Assembly (NCBI RefSeq): GCF_003287405.1
Contig: NZ_PRLD01000005.1
Location: forward strand, 124,001 to 188,000
Reading direction: 5' to 3'
DNA from: Faecalibacterium prausnitzii
GTDB lineage: Bacteria; Bacillota; Clostridia; Oscillospirales; Ruminococcaceae
DNA: 64,000 nt
The position numbers were made by a program, and so were the translations under genes. This document shows, one piece after another, positions 26,249 to 32,878 of this stretch. The notes beneath the pieces are model-generated. The model was not told the origin of the DNA. It was given only the letters and a program-made list of their open reading frames with translations, and made no database searches. The number at the start of each line of letters is the position of its first letter. Position 1 is the first letter of the stretch.

Positions 26249-27193
26249 TCAGTCTTTCTTCTCTGCGGTGCGGGCAAAGAAGTTGGCAAGGACAGCGCCG
26301 GAAATGTTATGCCACACCGAGAACACAGCGCCGGGGATGGTTGCCAGCGGATACTGTGCAAAGTGGGCAGCGGCCAGAGAGGTGGCAAGACCGGAGTTCT
26401 GCATACCCACCTCGATGGAGATTGCGCGGCACTTGGTGGAATCCAGCTTCAGCAGCTTGCCCACGCCAAAACCGGTAAGGTAGCCCAGCAGGTTGTGCAG
26501 GATGACCACGGCAAGGATCAGCAGGCCGCTGGTCATGATCTTAGCGGAGTTGGCAGACACAACGGCGCAGATGATCAGCACGATGGCGGTGGTGGAGATC
26601 AGCGGCAGCACGCGGACGGCGTTCTGTGTGAAGGCATGGAAGAAGTGGTTGACCACAAAGCCCAGTGCGATGGGAACCAGCACCACCTTGACGATGGACA
26701 GGAACATATTTACAGGGTTCACATCCACGCGCTGGCCGGCATACAGCAGGGTGAGCAGCGGGGTGAGGAAGGGTGCCAGCACGGTGGAAACGGCAGTCAT
26801 GCCAACGGACAGCGCAACGTCGCCCTTGGACAGATAGGTCATCACGTTAGAGGAGGTGCCGCCGGGGCAGGTGCCCACCAGAATGACGCCGATGGCCAGC
26901 TCGGTGGGCAGGTGGAACAGCTGGGTCAGCGCCCATGCCAGGAAGGGCATCAGGGTGAACTGTGCAATGCAGCCGATGATCACGTCCTTCGGGCGGCTGA
27001 ACACCACCTTGAAGTCCTCCGGCTTCAGGGTAAGACCCATGCCGAACATGACGATGCCCAGCAGGGTGTTGACCCATGCGGTCTTTACCACGCTGAAGGG
27101 ACCGGGGAACAGCAGCGCCAGCGCCGCCACCACAATGACGATGACGGCCATGTACTTGCCCACAAAATCGCTTACTTTTTCCAATGTTTTCAT
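26249..27193 (-). CDS. Bile acid:sodium symporter (BASS) family transporter
   Basis: A 314-residue polytopic transporter with about ten hydrophobic segments. Family features are VMFGMGLTLKPEDF near residue 50, VGTCPGGTSSNVMTYLSKGD and EVGMQNSGLA toward the end. Bacterial members carry organic anions such as keto acids, pantoate or bile salts, usually with sodium. The start at 27193 has AAAAAGGAG seven bases upstream. A T-box leader on the same strand precedes it, so transport is probably tied to the charging of one tRNA, which argues for an amino-acid-related substrate. Confidence 0.88.
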   Translation of the reverse strand: MKTLEKVSDFVGKYMAVIVIVVAALALLFPGPFSVVKTAWVNTLLGIVMFGMGLTLKPEDFKVVFSRPKDVIIGCIAQFTLMPFLAWALTQLFHLPTELAIGVILVGTCPGGTSSNVMTYLSKGDVALSVGMTAVSTVLAPFLTPLLTLLYAGQRVDVNPVNMFLSIVKVVLVPIALGFVVNHFFHAFTQNAVRVLPLISTTAIVLIICAVVSANSAKIMTSGLLILAVVILHNLLGYLTGFGVGKLLKLDSTKCRAISIEVGMQNSGLATSLAAAHFAQYPLATIPGAVFSVWHNISGAVLANFFARTAEKKD

Positions 27194-27274
27194 GATGATA
27201 CTCCTTTTTCCTGAACACTTATTTTTGCGGATGTAAAGGCAATGAAACATCCGGGAAATGGCTTTCCCGCAAAC

Positions 27275-27574: not shown

Positions 27575-27603
27575 AGTATACTCCCCCTAAAGGCGGAAGT
27601 CAA
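27575..27603 (-). promoter_or_regulatory. Promoter of the T-box leader
   Basis: Minus strand TTGACT (27603-27598), 17-bp spacer, TATACT (27580-27575), just upstream of stem I. Confidence 0.83.
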
Positions 27604-27823
27604 GGGATGCGGCCTGTCTGCTTTTTCACCTGATTCACATCAAAGGTGAACACAGCTCATGCTGTGCTGCCTTGCCATGGGCTGCACCGCGCTGCGCGGG
27701 TCAAATTTCCAACTTTTTACAAATAAAGGGAAAACTGCCGTTTGCTATATAAAAGTAAACGTTTTCGGCCGCGTTACTAAAAAAATACAACATAGAATAT
27801 AAACAAAATCCCGGTAAAACCGG

Positions 27824-27852
27824 TTGACACCGGGGGGGGGGTATGCTATACT
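27824..27852 (+). promoter_or_regulatory. Promoter with homopolymeric G10 spacer
   Basis: TTGACA (27824-27829) and TATACT (27847-27852) are 17 bp apart. Ten of those 17 bases are an uninterrupted G run (27832-27841). The spacer is at the optimal length with ten G, so slippage by one or two bases would change promoter strength. It drives the riboswitch leader and the surface protein genes. Confidence 0.85.
27832..27841 (+). repeat. G10 homopolymer between -35 and -10
   Basis: A mononucleotide tract of ten G at a position where length variation alters transcription. Comparable tracts act as phase-variation switches in porA of Neisseria and fim genes of Bordetella. Confidence 0.85.
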
Positions 27853-27896
27853 ATTGTCGACAAAAATGATGTATCAATCTTTAAAAATATTGGGCA

Positions 27897-27992
27897 AATT
27901 TTGGGCAAACTTGTCGAAAGGCAAGGACGCAAAGCCATAGGGGCTAAGGTTCGGGGTATTTCCCGGATGATGCCAGCCGGTTGCTCCCGGTT
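27897..27992 (+). promoter_or_regulatory. Cyclic-di-GMP-I (GEMM) riboswitch aptamer
   Basis: The aptamer contains GGGCAAAC, CGAAAGGCAAGGACGCAAAGCC, given here in parts as CGAAAG and GGACGCAAAGCC, then GGGGCTAAGG and GGATGATGCCAGCCGGTTGC. These match the GEMM-I core (GGACGCAAAGCC, CTAAGG, ATG and AGCCGG). GGGCAA (27903) pairs with TTGCTC (27981) to close P1. It lies between the G10 promoter and a three-gene surface protein unit. Whether the ligand turns expression on or off is not clear from the sequence. Confidence 0.93.
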
Positions 27993-28080
27993 TTTTGCAG
28001 AAATGCTCTGCATACTGGGAACGTCCAAAACCACAGGTGTGTTCTTTTTAAGGGCACGCCGGATTTTGCTCGTATCATCA

Positions 28081-28112
28081 AAGCTGCCCGCAAGGTCGGG
28101 CGGCTTTTTTAT
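28081..28112 (+). terminator. Terminator of the riboswitch expression platform
   Basis: AGCTGCCCG-caaggt-CGGGCGGCT with a following T run, ending 30 bases before the ATG. Its position downstream of the aptamer makes it the probable regulated terminator. Confidence 0.82.
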
Positions 28113-28141
28113 TGTTCCAACGGAAAGGGAGCGTGGAGCCC

Positions 28142-28930
28142 ATGGAGAACAAAAACATAAGCAAAGCGGTCATCGGGGTGCTGGTGGTACTGGTGGTGCT
28201 GCTGGGCGGCTACATCGCAGTGTCCGGCGGCAAGTCCGCTGCCACGGCCAACGGCGCGTCCGAAGCAGCCGCGCTGCCCATGGAGACCTATCAGGCGCAG
28301 TATGTCAAGCCGGAGACCCCCATCGACCGCAGCAAAAACGTCACCCTGCCGGGCTGGGGCGGCTTTACCATCCCCGCAAAGACCAAAAAGATCACGCAGG
28401 GATTCGAGTTCCATAACCCTGCCGAGAATCTCTGGTACGAGGACTGGGTAAGCATCGACGGCACTCCGCTGGAAAAGCTGGTGGTGGACAGCGGCCAGAC
28501 CGCAGAGCTGAGCCATTACCTGCGCTTGGCGGGCATTCAGGCCGATGTGACCAAGGTGCTGGACGCCGACCCTGCGTTTTTCGACATCCAAAAAAACGAT
28601 GCCGGGGCATACACCATCGAAGCCGTCAAGGGCTATAAGGGCGAAAAGACCCTGACCGTGCAGGCCGATGACGGCAAGCAGTACACCCTTACCCTGACCG
28701 GCAAGGAGGAGTGCTACTACATCGCCTTTGGGTTGTATTTAGAGGACGGCGACGAGCTGCTGTTCCAGTCCGGCCTTGTAGCGCCCGGGTTGTATGTGCA
28801 AAAGATGGAGATGACCCGCGCCCTTGCCCCCGGCGAGTACCCGGCCTATGTGGTGTGCCAGCCCTATCTTTCGGACCGCACCACCAAGACCAACAGCGGC
28901 ATTGTAAAGCTGACACTGACCGTAGGCTGA
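28142..28930 (+). CDS. Membrane-anchored extracytoplasmic protein of unknown function
   Basis: A 262-residue protein with an N-terminal membrane segment (about 7-27, AVIGVLVVLVVLLGGYIAV) and an otherwise soluble, beta-rich outer part. The region GWGGFTIPAKTKKITQGFEF is followed near the end by GDELLFQSGLVAPGLYVQKM and LAPGEYPAYVVCQPY, a beta-sandwich-like repeat pattern. ATG 28142 follows GGGAG and GGAG sites; TTG 28112 is rejected because it lies in the terminator. First gene after the riboswitch. It could be an anchor or assembly factor for the two secreted proteins downstream; that is inference. Confidence 0.75.
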   Translation: MENKNISKAVIGVLVVLVVLLGGYIAVSGGKSAATANGASEAAALPMETYQAQYVKPETPIDRSKNVTLPGWGGFTIPAKTKKITQGFEFHNPAENLWYEDWVSIDGTPLEKLVVDSGQTAELSHYLRLAGIQADVTKVLDADPAFFDIQKNDAGAYTIEAVKGYKGEKTLTVQADDGKQYTLTLTGKEECYYIAFGLYLEDGDELLFQSGLVAPGLYVQKMEMTRALAPGEYPAYVVCQPYLSDRTTKTNSGIVKLTLTVG

Positions 28931-29070
28931 GCCCCCTTGCGGTGGGCAAAACCGGCAGTGTTGACAATAAAAAAGAACTGAATTGGGGATCAACAAACCA
29001 TATGGTGTGAAAGGAGTAGGCAGATCCAAGGCTGACCGTCAGCTGCGGGCCCCATTGCCGAATAAGGATT

Positions 29071-29733
29071 ATGAAATTGACGAAGAAAGCGGCCACCCTG
29101 CTCCTTGCAGCTTCTCTGGCGGTTTCTGTGTGCGCAATGCCGGTGTTTGCGGCTGATACTGCTCATGCTGGAGAAAATGTGTCAGGTACTACGCCTACGA
29201 ATACCACAACAACGGTAAAGTACGAGGTTACCGAAGGATATAAGTGGGCGATTCCTGCAACGATCGACTTTGGTAAAGATGCGGGTTTAAATGCAACGCG
29301 CACGGTTGACGCCAATCAGGTAAAAGATACCGGCTCCTATAAGGTTGCGGATACAAATGTTCGCGGTGAGTCTGGCAACGTTTACGTTTCTGATTGCAGA
29401 CTTAAGCCGGGCACGAAGCTGACCATTTCGATTTCTAGCACTACTACGATGTATAATGCCACTGATGGTTTTTATGTGAAAACGACCAATAAGGGTGCCA
29501 TCACCAGTAACACCGCCAAAGTGCCTTACGCAATTTATAAGGGCACAGAGGCTGACCCCGCAACGCCGACTCCGGAAAATAAACTTGATAACAGCAGCGA
29601 GATTCTGAAACTCAACGCGGGCACGGATTACGGTAAGCAGGATCTGACGTTTATCCTTTCCACTGGCGATGCTGAAATTGCCGGTGAGTATACCGGCACG
29701 GTTGCCTTTGCGGCAAAGGTTGACAACGCCTGA
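29071..29733 (+). CDS. Secreted subunit-like surface protein
   Basis: A 220-residue protein with a signal peptide ending near VFA-AD (28/29). The mature part is Thr/Ser/Asn-rich and beta-strand-like, with EGYKWAIPATIDFG near its start and AGEYTGTVAFAAKV at its end. The same opening and closing patterns occur in the N-terminal domain of the next gene's product. No LPXTG and no C-terminal membrane anchor. A terminator hairpin follows the gene, so this product is probably made in excess over the next one, as expected for a major structural subunit. Confidence 0.75.
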   Translation: MKLTKKAATLLLAASLAVSVCAMPVFAADTAHAGENVSGTTPTNTTTTVKYEVTEGYKWAIPATIDFGKDAGLNATRTVDANQVKDTGSYKVADTNVRGESGNVYVSDCRLKPGTKLTISISSTTTMYNATDGFYVKTTNKGAITSNTAKVPYAIYKGTEADPATPTPENKLDNSSEILKLNAGTDYGKQDLTFILSTGDAEIAGEYTGTVAFAAKVDNA

Positions 29734-29770
29734 CCTAACCCACCCCACCCAACCTAATAACACCTGAACC

Positions 29771-29810
29771 CAAAGGGGAGACGGGAGCTGTTCCCTCTCC
29801 CCTTTTTTGG
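29771..29810 (+). terminator. Partial terminator between the two surface protein genes
   Basis: AAAGGGGAGA and TCTCCCCTTT form a 10-bp stem with a T6 run. It stands between two genes that otherwise look like one unit and would lower expression of the second. Confidence 0.8.
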
Positions 29811-29854
29811 GCTTTGCGGCAAAAAGCAGCCACCCCACACAAGGAGGATACACC

Positions 29855-32800
29855 ATGAAACATTGTGCAAAAAAACTGCTGGGCCTTGCGTTTGCGCTGG
29901 CTCTGTGCCTTGCAGTGGGTGGAACGGCGCTTGCCCAAACGCCGGAATTTGCCGATGTGCCCGCCGCCCTGCCGGAGCAGGAAATGCTGGACTACGAGCC
30001 GAATGTTACCGCCGAACCGGGCATGAACACCGCCGGCAGCATTGAGACTGACGGCTATACCGTGACCATCCCCACCACTGTGACGGTGGATAGCGAGGAT
30101 AATACGACGAGTACGCTGATGGTTACGGCAGACGTGCGGCAGATGCGCACCCTGACAATCACCCTTGACTCTAAGAACAACTGGCAGTTACGGCACGAGA
30201 GCGGGCAGGTGCAGGCAGGGTATAGCCTGACGGCAGACCCGGCCATCGGTTCTTCGTACAGCGGGAAAAATATGTGGATGTATAACGAAGTTGGAACTGA
30301 CCGTAAAACAAAAAAGCCGGAGCTTCATTTGATTGTAGCACAGAAGGCTAAGGACGATTTTGACATAAATTGGAAGGACAGCTTTAACGTCCCTCTGACT
30401 GTTCAGGTGACAAACCCCAGCCAAGCTACCATGAGCGGCACTTACTCCGATACAGTAAGCTTTGAGTTTGCCATTACTCATAAATCATGCATTACTTATT
30501 TCATCAACGTCTACGAACAGGAGCTGCAGCTTACAGCCGATGGGAAGAGCGTTGAAGCCGTGGATATGGTGAATGCGGACGGAACAGTGAAACCCGGTGC
30601 TAAACCGGTGCACACCGAGATTTTGGAATATCCCACTGGAAATGACAAAGAATATCCGTGGAGCTATAGCGGTGACGAAGCAGATGCTGCTCTTCGCTGG
30701 GAAAAAGCGACAGCGACCATGAACACACACCAAGATGCCAGCGGTATGACGGATAACAAGGTGGATGCAAACAATAACGTTACCATCAACCTGAACCGGA
30801 AGTACAAGTGGTACTGGCTGGATGTGAACGGCGCTACAGATTACAATGGTGAATACGCCAGCGGCAACCAAGGCGGGAGAATCAGCGGCCATGTGAATAT
30901 GCAGGTATCCGTAGATGGACAGGATTGGACGGACTGGTTCTGGCAGGGTGACGGCGATGACTATTGGGGGCGGTTTCCCTATGGCATCCACTTTAAGCTG
31001 GGTTTGCACCATGTCAAAAACGGCTATTTCTATGATGAAGAGACCCCCGGCAAAAATGTTAGAATTTGTGCAAACAAAACTCTGACAGTCACCCAAACTA
31101 AGGAAGAAAGCAACGATAACCTGACGACCTACCGTGTGTATACGGGTGAACTGACCGGTACGCCAACGGACACGGATGGTTACGGCAATGTCCGCTACTG
31201 CTACATTCCCTGCTATAAAAAGGGCATTACCTATATGGTCAACGACGGTATAGGCGGCAAGGAAGATGTAAATGAGGATAACCCGGCGCGCACGAACGTG
31301 CTGTATGAGGAAACCGGCACGCTGGAAAAACCGGAGGACTTGGGAATTACCGCCCCCGCCGGCAAGTCGTTTGCCGGGTGGAGCACAAAATCCACCTATA
31401 CCAAGGGAGACAAGCTTTATCAACCGGGCGCTAAGGTTAGCGATGTCGTATGGGACACCTACACCGCCGCCGAAATGGCTGCAAGGCCGCAGAGCGATGA
31501 GCAAAAACGTGTGCTTTACGCCATTTGGGGCTATAACATCACCGTGCAGTTTGAGGACGAAACGGGCTACACGGCAGATGGTACGAAAGACCCTGTTCTT
31601 GGCAGCTCGATGACTGGATATTCCTTCACGCTCAAAGGTCAAGCGGTGGAAGAGGGCAAGGAATGGACGCTGGATTTGACAAATCCTGAGGTGATGACGG
31701 CAATTACCGCTGCAACCAACGCCGCAAGAGACGCCACGCTGATTGAGAATGCAACGGATAATGAAACCGCAATAGGGGAAGAACTTGAAAGAAAGATTTG
31801 GAAGATAGGCAACTACATAGAAGAGGGTCATAATTTTAACTACACGAAGGAATGCACGATCAGCGCAGAGGACTTGAAAAAGCCCAACCCCACGTTGATG
31901 ATCCAGCGCAGACGGTATTTGCTGTCGGTGATCAGCGCGGAAGCTACTACGAGTTATGTCTACGGAATTGCAAAAAATCCTAATGACCAGAAATATGGCA
32001 CGTTTACTGTTACAGTAAATAATGATGAAAAAGCATCCAACACATCGTTTTATCAATGCGGTCTGAACTATGGTGCAGGGTATGAGATAAAAGATGTTAA
32101 AGCTGAACCGGACTACGAAGATCAGGGATATTTGATTTTCAAACTTTCGCTAACAGAAGGAACGGCGCCGACTACGGGGGTTGTTTTTAAGTATATGACG
32201 CAGTCCTATTCTGGATTTATGACGGCAAAGGATGACAAACTCCACTATTACACGCCAAGCGATCAGAATCCAGAGCCTGTTTACAACGGTGACTCCGTCC
32301 GAGTGGCGTTTTCTAAAAAAAGTAGCTCCACCCCCGGCTCCACCACCCCTATGCCCGGCCCGAGCTTAGCCCCGGGGCTGAGCAGCCCCGCACCGTCCGT
32401 CGGCCTTGCCCTGCACTATCACGCGAACTTTGAGCCGGACGATGCCCTTGAGGAAACGGTAAAGACTGTGTACTGCCGCAGCGCTGCGGACGTAACGGTG
32501 CACCCTTGTATGTTCAAGCGGGCGGGCTATGCTTTTGCGGGCTGGAACACGGAAGAGGACGGCACAGGTACATGGTACTGGGTAAACGGCGTGCCCGTGA
32601 CCGACTGGCGGGATGGCGACACGGTAGACCTTTACGCCCAGTGGAAAAAGACCGCCGCCCAACGCCCTGTGGCAGACCCTGACCCCGTTGAGCCTATAGA
32701 CCCGGTCGAGCCTGCAGAACCCTTTGACCCCGATGTCCCGCCGGCAGAGCTGGACGAGTTGTTTGGCGTAGACCCGGACGCCGCCTTTGATGCAGACCCC

Positions 32801-32878
32801 GACCCGCTGCCGGAGGAACTGGACGATGTCTTTAGCGTAGACCCCGGCGGGGACGCGGACATCCTGCTGACGCGCTGA
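29855..32878 (+). CDS. Large secreted adhesin-like protein with InlB-type repeats
   Basis: A 1007-residue protein with a signal peptide (cleavage near ALA-QT, residue 29). Residues about 50-220 form a domain similar in outline to the preceding 220-residue protein, from DGYTVTIPTTVTV to MSGTYSDTVSFEFAI. Two InlB B-repeat-like (Listeria-Bacteroides) modules are visible: FAGWSTKSTYTKGDKLY with LYAIWG, and FAGWNTEEDGTGTWYW with DLYAQWKK. The tail is Pro/Asp/Glu-rich with two similar units, ELDELFGVDPDA and ELDDVFSVDPGG. No LPXTG or C-terminal membrane helix. ATG 29855 follows AAGGAGG. The middle of the gene is AT-richer than its surroundings, suggesting transfer. Likely the tip or binding component of a surface structure. 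Confidence 0.82.
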   Translation: MKHCAKKLLGLAFALALCLAVGGTALAQTPEFADVPAALPEQEMLDYEPNVTAEPGMNTAGSIETDGYTVTIPTTVTVDSEDNTTSTLMVTADVRQMRTLTITLDSKNNWQLRHESGQVQAGYSLTADPAIGSSYSGKNMWMYNEVGTDRKTKKPELHLIVAQKAKDDFDINWKDSFNVPLTVQVTNPSQATMSGTYSDTVSFEFAITHKSCITYFINVYEQELQLTADGKSVEAVDMVNADGTVKPGAKPVHTEILEYPTGNDKEYPWSYSGDEADAALRWEKATATMNTHQDASGMTDNKVDANNNVTINLNRKYKWYWLDVNGATDYNGEYASGNQGGRISGHVNMQVSVDGQDWTDWFWQGDGDDYWGRFPYGIHFKLGLHHVKNGYFYDEETPGKNVRICANKTLTVTQTKEESNDNLTTYRVYTGELTGTPTDTDGYGNVRYCYIPCYKKGITYMVNDGIGGKEDVNEDNPARTNVLYEETGTLEKPEDLGITAPAGKSFAGWSTKSTYTKGDKLYQPGAKVSDVVWDTYTAAEMAARPQSDEQKRVLYAIWGYNITVQFEDETGYTADGTKDPVLGSSMTGYSFTLKGQAVEEGKEWTLDLTNPEVMTAITAATNAARDATLIENATDNETAIGEELERKIWKIGNYIEEGHNFNYTKECTISAEDLKKPNPTLMIQRRRYLLSVISAEATTSYVYGIAKNPNDQKYGTFTVTVNNDEKASNTSFYQCGLNYGAGYEIKDVKAEPDYEDQGYLIFKLSLTEGTAPTTGVVFKYMTQSYSGFMTAKDDKLHYYTPSDQNPEPVYNGDSVRVAFSKKSSSTPGSTTPMPGPSLAPGLSSPAPSVGLALHYHANFEPDDALEETVKTVYCRSAADVTVHPCMFKRAGYAFAGWNTEEDGTGTWYWVNGVPVTDWRDGDTVDLYAQWKKTAAQRPVADPDPVEPIDPVEPAEPFDPDVPPAELDELFGVDPDAAFDADPDPLPEELDDVFSVDPGGDADILLTR

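Follow-up and report, generated by a model that had tools for sequence, protein, structure and literature searches.

The window, by which we mean the whole 64,000-nucleotide stretch of Faecalibacterium prausnitzii DNA that was analyzed, contains a c-di-GMP-I (GEMM-I) aptamer that sits in a 5′ leader, with a promoter upstream of it, an intrinsic terminator downstream and then the ATG at 28142 of the first of three genes (Table 1). Divergent from this riboswitch unit, a T-box leader (RF00230, 27301–27560, minus strand, 112.8 bits) lies before a gene of the sodium/bile-acid-symporter family (26249–27214, minus strand).

Table 1. Features of the riboswitch locus; positions are counted from the first letter of the window.
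Feature	Position	Strand	Details
–35 hexamer	27824–27829	+	TTGACA
G10 homopolymer in the –35/–10 spacer	27832–27841	+	spacer of 17 nt = CC + G10 + TATGC
Extended –10	27844–27852	+	TGC + TATACT; TATACT at 27847–27852
Strand 5′ of the aptamer core	27883–27904	+	candidate antiterminator partner of 28078–28090; can pair with three downstream strands
c-di-GMP-I (GEMM-I) aptamer, RF01051	27894–27988	+	64.8 bits; presumed G20 = 27904
Hairpin A	27985–28020	+	−15.9 kcal/mol; 5′ arm common to the predicted P1 3′ strand
Hairpin B	28036–28060	+	11 pairs, then a poor U tract
Intrinsic terminator	28080–28110	+	stem 28080–28107, 11 pairs; T run 28105–28110; −17.8 kcal/mol
Gene 1	28142–28930	+	262 aa; membrane-like segment at the N terminus (by eye); relatives across the family; no Pfam family over cut-off
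Gene 2	29071–29733	+	220 aa; signal-peptide-like start (by eye); YxVxIPA-type motif; no Pfam family
Gene 3	29855–32878	+	1008 aa; signal-peptide-like start (by eye); List_Bact (Flg_new) repeat at 878–909

The original prediction of an intact GEMM-I core held up in a covariance search of the whole 64-kb window (cmscan), where RF01051 scored 64.8 bits, well above its gathering score of 35, at an E-value of 2e-10, the alignment running over model positions 1–87 of 87 with one non-standard pair marked. The core letters that had been quoted are all present (GGACGCAAAGCC at 27925–27936, CTAAGG and AGCCGG), and the ligand-selecting position 20, which we take to be 27904, within the GGGCAAA core, is a G. 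A G20A aptamer variant is mentioned in PMC6274999. Four Rfam matches exceeded their gathering scores in the window (the T-box, two tRNAs and the c-di-GMP-I aptamer), and the aptamer is the sole c-di-GMP-I match found in its own genome. Judged by its sequence, the feature is a genuine c-di-GMP-I riboswitch, ordinary as riboswitches go, for which ligand binding is predicted. The expected ligand is c-di-GMP, because position 20 is a G and because the genome holds 11 GGDEF and 2 EAL domain matches over cut-off, with a GGDEF or SGDEF motif visible in seven of the eight GGDEF loci inspected; the absence of any c-di-GMP synthase, which would have counted against the original prediction, is therefore not what the genome shows. 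A search for c-di-GMP-II matched 0 of 31 genus genomes, in a search where no positive control matched either.

The promoter, just upstream of the segment 27897–28112, is of sigma-70 type and agrees with the consensus at 11 of 12 letters. Across the window, TTGACA-N15-19-TATAMT occurs three times, the G10 promoter included, compared with 0.01 expected in a shuffled window, and the tract is the only run of seven or more G on either strand. Genome-wide, 15 overlapping matches merge by eye into eight distinct tracts of at least nine G, and 0.0002 would be expected by chance to lie within 150 nt upstream of the sole aptamer. All eight read as G, never C, on the plus strand of their contigs (C29, C38, C50, C62 and C70), and some lie, by eye, in or beside glycosyltransferase- or acyltransferase-like genes. 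Contingency loci with a homopolymer in the promoter spacer are of Neisseria, Campylobacter and Mycoplasma types; the defining homopolymer between the –35 and –10 hexamers is present here, as G10 in the 17-nt spacer, and its length would likewise set promoter strength, but unlike those loci the tract in the window is linked to a riboswitch and is part of a lipoprotein promoter class.

Functionally, the original prediction had this leader controlling a surface protein unit, and this is supported in part: all three products have membrane or signal-peptide-like N-termini (by eye), from which, together with domains, a surface function would follow, but Pfam adds just one match over cut-off, the List_Bact repeat in gene 3. 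Relatives of gene 1 were found in 30 of the 247 family genomes searched, its own included, mostly over the last 70–100 residues, and none among GTDB r220 contigs, where a single-protein query reaches close relatives only and may leave out the own or near genomes. Compared with 16 family relatives, the gene 1 product has about 90 extra residues inserted between its NPAEN and YYIAFGLYL segments. Downstream of gene 1 relatives, a YxVxIP-type sequence lies within 2.5 kb in 13 of 18 scored loci (20 fetched), and phmmer identified a gene 2 relative at a fourteenth (L275). No Pfam family over cut-off is common to more than two members of the gene 1 and gene 2 families, which look like an undescribed, family-wide pair of a membrane protein and a secreted protein. 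None of the 20 family loci of gene 1 relatives has a c-di-GMP riboswitch, several of these loci being cut by contig ends, and as far as these loci reach the riboswitch is a local addition to the pair, not a conserved partner. Within the genus, gene 2 was matched in 1 of 31 genomes, the window's own, and the gene-2-type proteins of three relatives (L257, L259 and L268) match gene 3. Folded from its sequence alone, the gene 2 product reached a pLDDT of 33, too low to be of use, and PDB profile searches gave weak matches only, the best being a biofilm-associated surface protein (E = 0.01). Genes 2 and 3 probably use the G10 promoter, since a plus-strand scan of 27600–29900 found no other promoter-like site, although a weak terminator-like site of five pairs ahead of gene 3 (29783–29799) makes cotranscription of that gene uncertain.

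Between the aptamer and the first ATG lies the terminator, where the original prediction had placed one. Its stem begins 92 nt past the aptamer match and shares no strand with the aptamer; terminator-like sites in 27600–29900 number five, this one included, against a shuffle mean of 3.4. We scored three duplexes of the strand 5′ of the aptamer core against 2000 shuffles: that with the terminator 5′ arm (28076–28091) came to −11.9 kcal/mol, reached by 0.3% of the shuffles, that with 28060–28075 to −11.6 kcal/mol (shuffle fraction 0.011), and that with the P1 3′ strand to −8.1 kcal/mol (shuffle fraction 0.13), no better than shuffles. P1 itself was weak and displaced from the aptamer core. Full-length folds kept the terminator whether free or aptamer-constrained, and the pairing computed for the terminator 5′ arm at the point where the 3′ arm is about to emerge did not discriminate between the two states (0.70 free versus 0.77 bound). 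Since the terminator wins in both states at full length, switching would need kinetics beyond the computed folds. That ensembles with and without the constrained aptamer both terminate would also suit a decayed, non-switching element, an aptamer remnant followed by a terminator acting as constitutive attenuation, and no ortholog of the window leader was found for comparison; such decay is nonetheless very improbable given the whole-model match with its one non-standard pair and the rarity among shuffles of the candidate antiterminator pairing. That the terminator does not depend on the ligand we consider improbable.

As for the direction of switching, the folding models tip us slightly towards genes that are OFF under c-di-GMP: terminator and aptamer have no strand in common, good pairing is predicted between the terminator 5′ arm and the strand preceding the aptamer, and the Cd1 OFF switch has the topology in which both folds coexist. 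Counting against an OFF direction, c-di-GMP often raises adhesin expression. As outlined in PMC9262584, terminator and aptamer folds coexist in the OFF switch Cd1 and are mutually exclusive in the pilM ON switch. At our locus the two folds are predicted to coexist with a competing antiterminator, as in Cd1; yet the Cd1 antiterminator uses the aptamer-stabilizing strand A, on the 3′ side, whereas the predicted partner here is the strand 5′ of the aptamer.

An ON direction under c-di-GMP seems rather unlikely on these models, and unlikely, too, is the specific arrangement in which the same two switches are kept but the aptamer, once bound, breaks up hairpin A or releases a terminator-blocking strand, so that c-di-GMP would induce the genes. 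P1 and hairpin A do have a strand in common, and in 8 of the 29 genus leaders examined the terminator 5′ arm begins before the estimated aptamer end, a pilM-like ON topology (PMC9262584), in a count that is rough because the aptamer 3′ ends, located with a regular expression, fall in the wrong place in some leaders (L011, L018, L031, L034 and L037, for example). From these leaders, ON switches probably do occur in the genus. At the window locus itself, the distance and lack of overlap between terminator stem and aptamer speak against this arrangement, and in the computed folds no strand freed from P1 was seen taking up the terminator arm.

Beyond this locus, the G10 promoter belongs to a genus-wide class. 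The pattern TTGA-N2-14-G7-N0-6-TANNNT matched 146 times in the 31 genus genomes (some promoters matched twice) against two matches for the reversed pattern, and its one match in the window's own genome is the G10 promoter. Narrowing to TTGACAC(C)-Gn gave 71 promoters in eight genomes, window included (duplicate rows merged by eye, hand tally), with tracts of CC+G8 in 46, CC+G9 in 15, CC+G7 in 4, CC+G10 in 4, among them the window promoter, and a single C in 2; three of the 71 (G004:C61, G007:C13 and G010:C105) diverge after the G tract. If TATGNTATAAT is taken as the –10 element, the spacer grows from 14 nt at CC+G7 to 17 nt at CC+G10, and G8 (15-nt spacing), the commonest in the class, could be the working state in the genus. 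G number also varies among similar promoters inside six single genomes (G001, G004, G005, G007, G010 and G016), with homopolymer misassembly as a caveat on such length differences. Slippage would leave behind just such differences in G count between like promoters of a single genome, and is therefore likely at the G10 tract.

The class has recognizable targets. Of 16 class sequences read, the window's among them, the 15 others have a common A-rich upstream stretch and leader, one of these leaders (L221) being partly diverged and cut, and the leaders, where long enough, reach ATG AAA/AAG CTC AAG AAG/AAA. Class promoters whose genes were read drive lipoproteins with similar leaders; five complete proteins have 211–234 residues and a lipobox (by eye), and none of the five has a Pfam family over cut-off. 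Seven genus genomes besides the window's own carry multi-copy lipoprotein promoters of TTGACAC(C)-Gn type, in most cases with TATGNTAT next and with similar leaders; the G number is 7–10, and the highest count is 23, in G001 (loci L039, L042, L043, L045, L049, L064, L068, L207, L210–L212, L219, L221, L230 and L234). On sequence grounds these multi-copy promoters look like a large phase-variable lipoprotein system. Several class copies sit no more than about 100 bases from where a contig begins, as is expected of repeats. Separately, a locus in a genus relative (L084, G002:C1:25948) carries a run of 23 G.

Homopolymers are also found ahead of other c-di-GMP-I aptamers in the genus. There are 30 c-di-GMP-I matches in 13 of the 31 genomes, and among the 29 leaders whose core the regular expression found (it missed L025), four are preceded, at no more than 90 nt, by a G7+ or A9+ run: the window (G10), L031 and L037 (G11 each) and L030 (about 20 A). 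The two G11 loci, also numbered L080 and L073, respectively, have orthologous leaders with 97% mean column identity over 312 columns, in which the G tracts are equal and one extra base beside the tract makes the spacer one base different; one further indel lies near the ribosome-binding site. Their genes encode signal-peptide-bearing beta-helix-repeat proteins, 50% identical over the reported 321-column match. At L030 (G003:C1 near 2628040), whose leader precedes a BspA-type LRR protein, TTGAC and a TATGAT-like –10 flank the roughly 20 A.

These observations bear on whether G10 is a mere spacer of a fixed promoter, with a real riboswitch but no phase variation, a reading that the commonness of CC+G8 in the class (46 of 71) would suit. 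It is distinctly unlikely in our judgment, given that G count differs within the six genomes listed above, that the spacer changes by one base in the otherwise 97% identical L073 and L080 leaders, and that G-tracts are reported to slip in Bifidobacterium breve (PMC9187656). The heritable random switch that the original prediction saw at this promoter is supported by comparison, in the G number that varies among class promoters within genomes and in the one-base spacer difference of the orthologous riboswitch promoter; for the G10 tract itself, slippage is a prediction.

We posit, with a probability of about 0.6, that the locus is a two-switch architecture in which the G10 promoter and then the riboswitch act on one transcription unit, 28142–32878. 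Slipped-strand mispairing would change the number of G and with it the –35/–10 spacing, giving heritable high and low initiation states, of which the sequenced assembly, with its 17-nt spacer, would represent the high one. Each transcript would then open with the aptamer and a terminator that share no strand. In ligand-free RNA, 27891–27904 would be free to pair with the terminator 5′ arm at 28078–28090, and the polymerase would read through; with c-di-GMP bound, 27891–27904 would be held in P1, the terminator would form and the genes would be OFF. Against this architecture, the G10 tract may be stable, or its assembled length may be wrong. Extending the idea, we tentatively suggest, at somewhat less than even odds, that surface-protein promoters in the genus and some relatives form a contingency system based on G-tract slippage between –35 and –10, including the multi-copy lipoprotein families and partly joined to c-di-GMP riboswitches, such that only cells in the right promoter state would respond to the second messenger, each such RNA being gated twice in succession, once at random and once by sensing.

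In genomes from other genera, a homopolymer promoter combined with a c-di-GMP-I aptamer was rare within the samples taken. A scan of the whole collection for G8 plus an aptamer core returned at least 114 stretches, 80 of which were taken as loci; among the matches listed, four of these (L091, L125, L152 and L157) have a GGCAAA-like core and 76 do not, and of the four only L157 has an accepted promoter. That locus, in a Eubacterium MAG, has TTGACA-N10-G8-TATAAT ahead of a c-di-GMP-I aptamer, the one among the four checked against Rfam, and the gene after it encodes a protein whose start is signal-peptide-like. L152 had been flagged by the promoter expression and was rejected, as no –35/–10 pair could be seen by eye. 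A family sample of 396 genomes, which held seven genus genomes and lacked G003 and G008, yielded two matches (the window, and one site without an aptamer core by eye, taken as chance) and one control match. In a class sample of 391 genomes, likewise lacking G003 and G008, a tighter pattern, one that the window itself does not satisfy (gap of 62 nt versus a limit of 54), was matched by none.

Phase variation together with a c-di-GMP riboswitch is already known in Clostridioides difficile, by DNA inversion. One close likeness is flgB, where the class I riboswitch Cd1 is combined with an invertible flagellar switch (PMC5386303): as proposed here, one transcript for a surface structure is subject both to a phase-variable element and to a terminator-bearing c-di-GMP riboswitch of class I, and terminator and aptamer folds can coexist (PMC9262584). 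The random switch of flgB, though, is a DNA inversion that lies downstream of the riboswitch and acts after initiation, whereas in the window it is a proposed G tract upstream, inside the promoter. The cmrRST operon also joins phase variation to a c-di-GMP riboswitch (PMC8844915), but with a class II ON switch, separate promoters, inversion of the promoter-bearing cmr switch and a signalling system as its target. In B. breve, G-tract slippage controls pili, surface structures as well, but from an intragenic tract and not a promoter, and the abstract mentions no riboswitch (PMC9187656). A literature search by title and abstract start, with subscription journals mostly outside it, found no report joining homopolymer slippage to a c-di-GMP riboswitch and none of the G-tract lipoprotein promoter class, although reports under the genus name could escape such a search. 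What would be new here is G-tract promoter slippage, itself predicted, coupled to a c-di-GMP riboswitch as part of a genus-wide promoter class. If true, this would be a second arrangement, outside C. difficile and mechanistically different, in which a single transcript is subject in series to bet-hedging and to second-messenger sensing, and its logic is directly testable because the two inputs, tract length and ligand, are separable. The promoter class, for its part, makes a large number of lipoproteins in one genus candidates for phase variation.

A further variation concerns the genus aptamers themselves. Position 20 is an A, a change linked to cGAMP binding, in 4 of the 28 genus c-di-GMP-I aptamers in which that position is readable (L011, L017, L020 and L023, the last near position 1511). 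In one genome (G015), the A20 aptamer L023 stands in tandem with a G20 aptamer (L013), before a CAP-domain protein.
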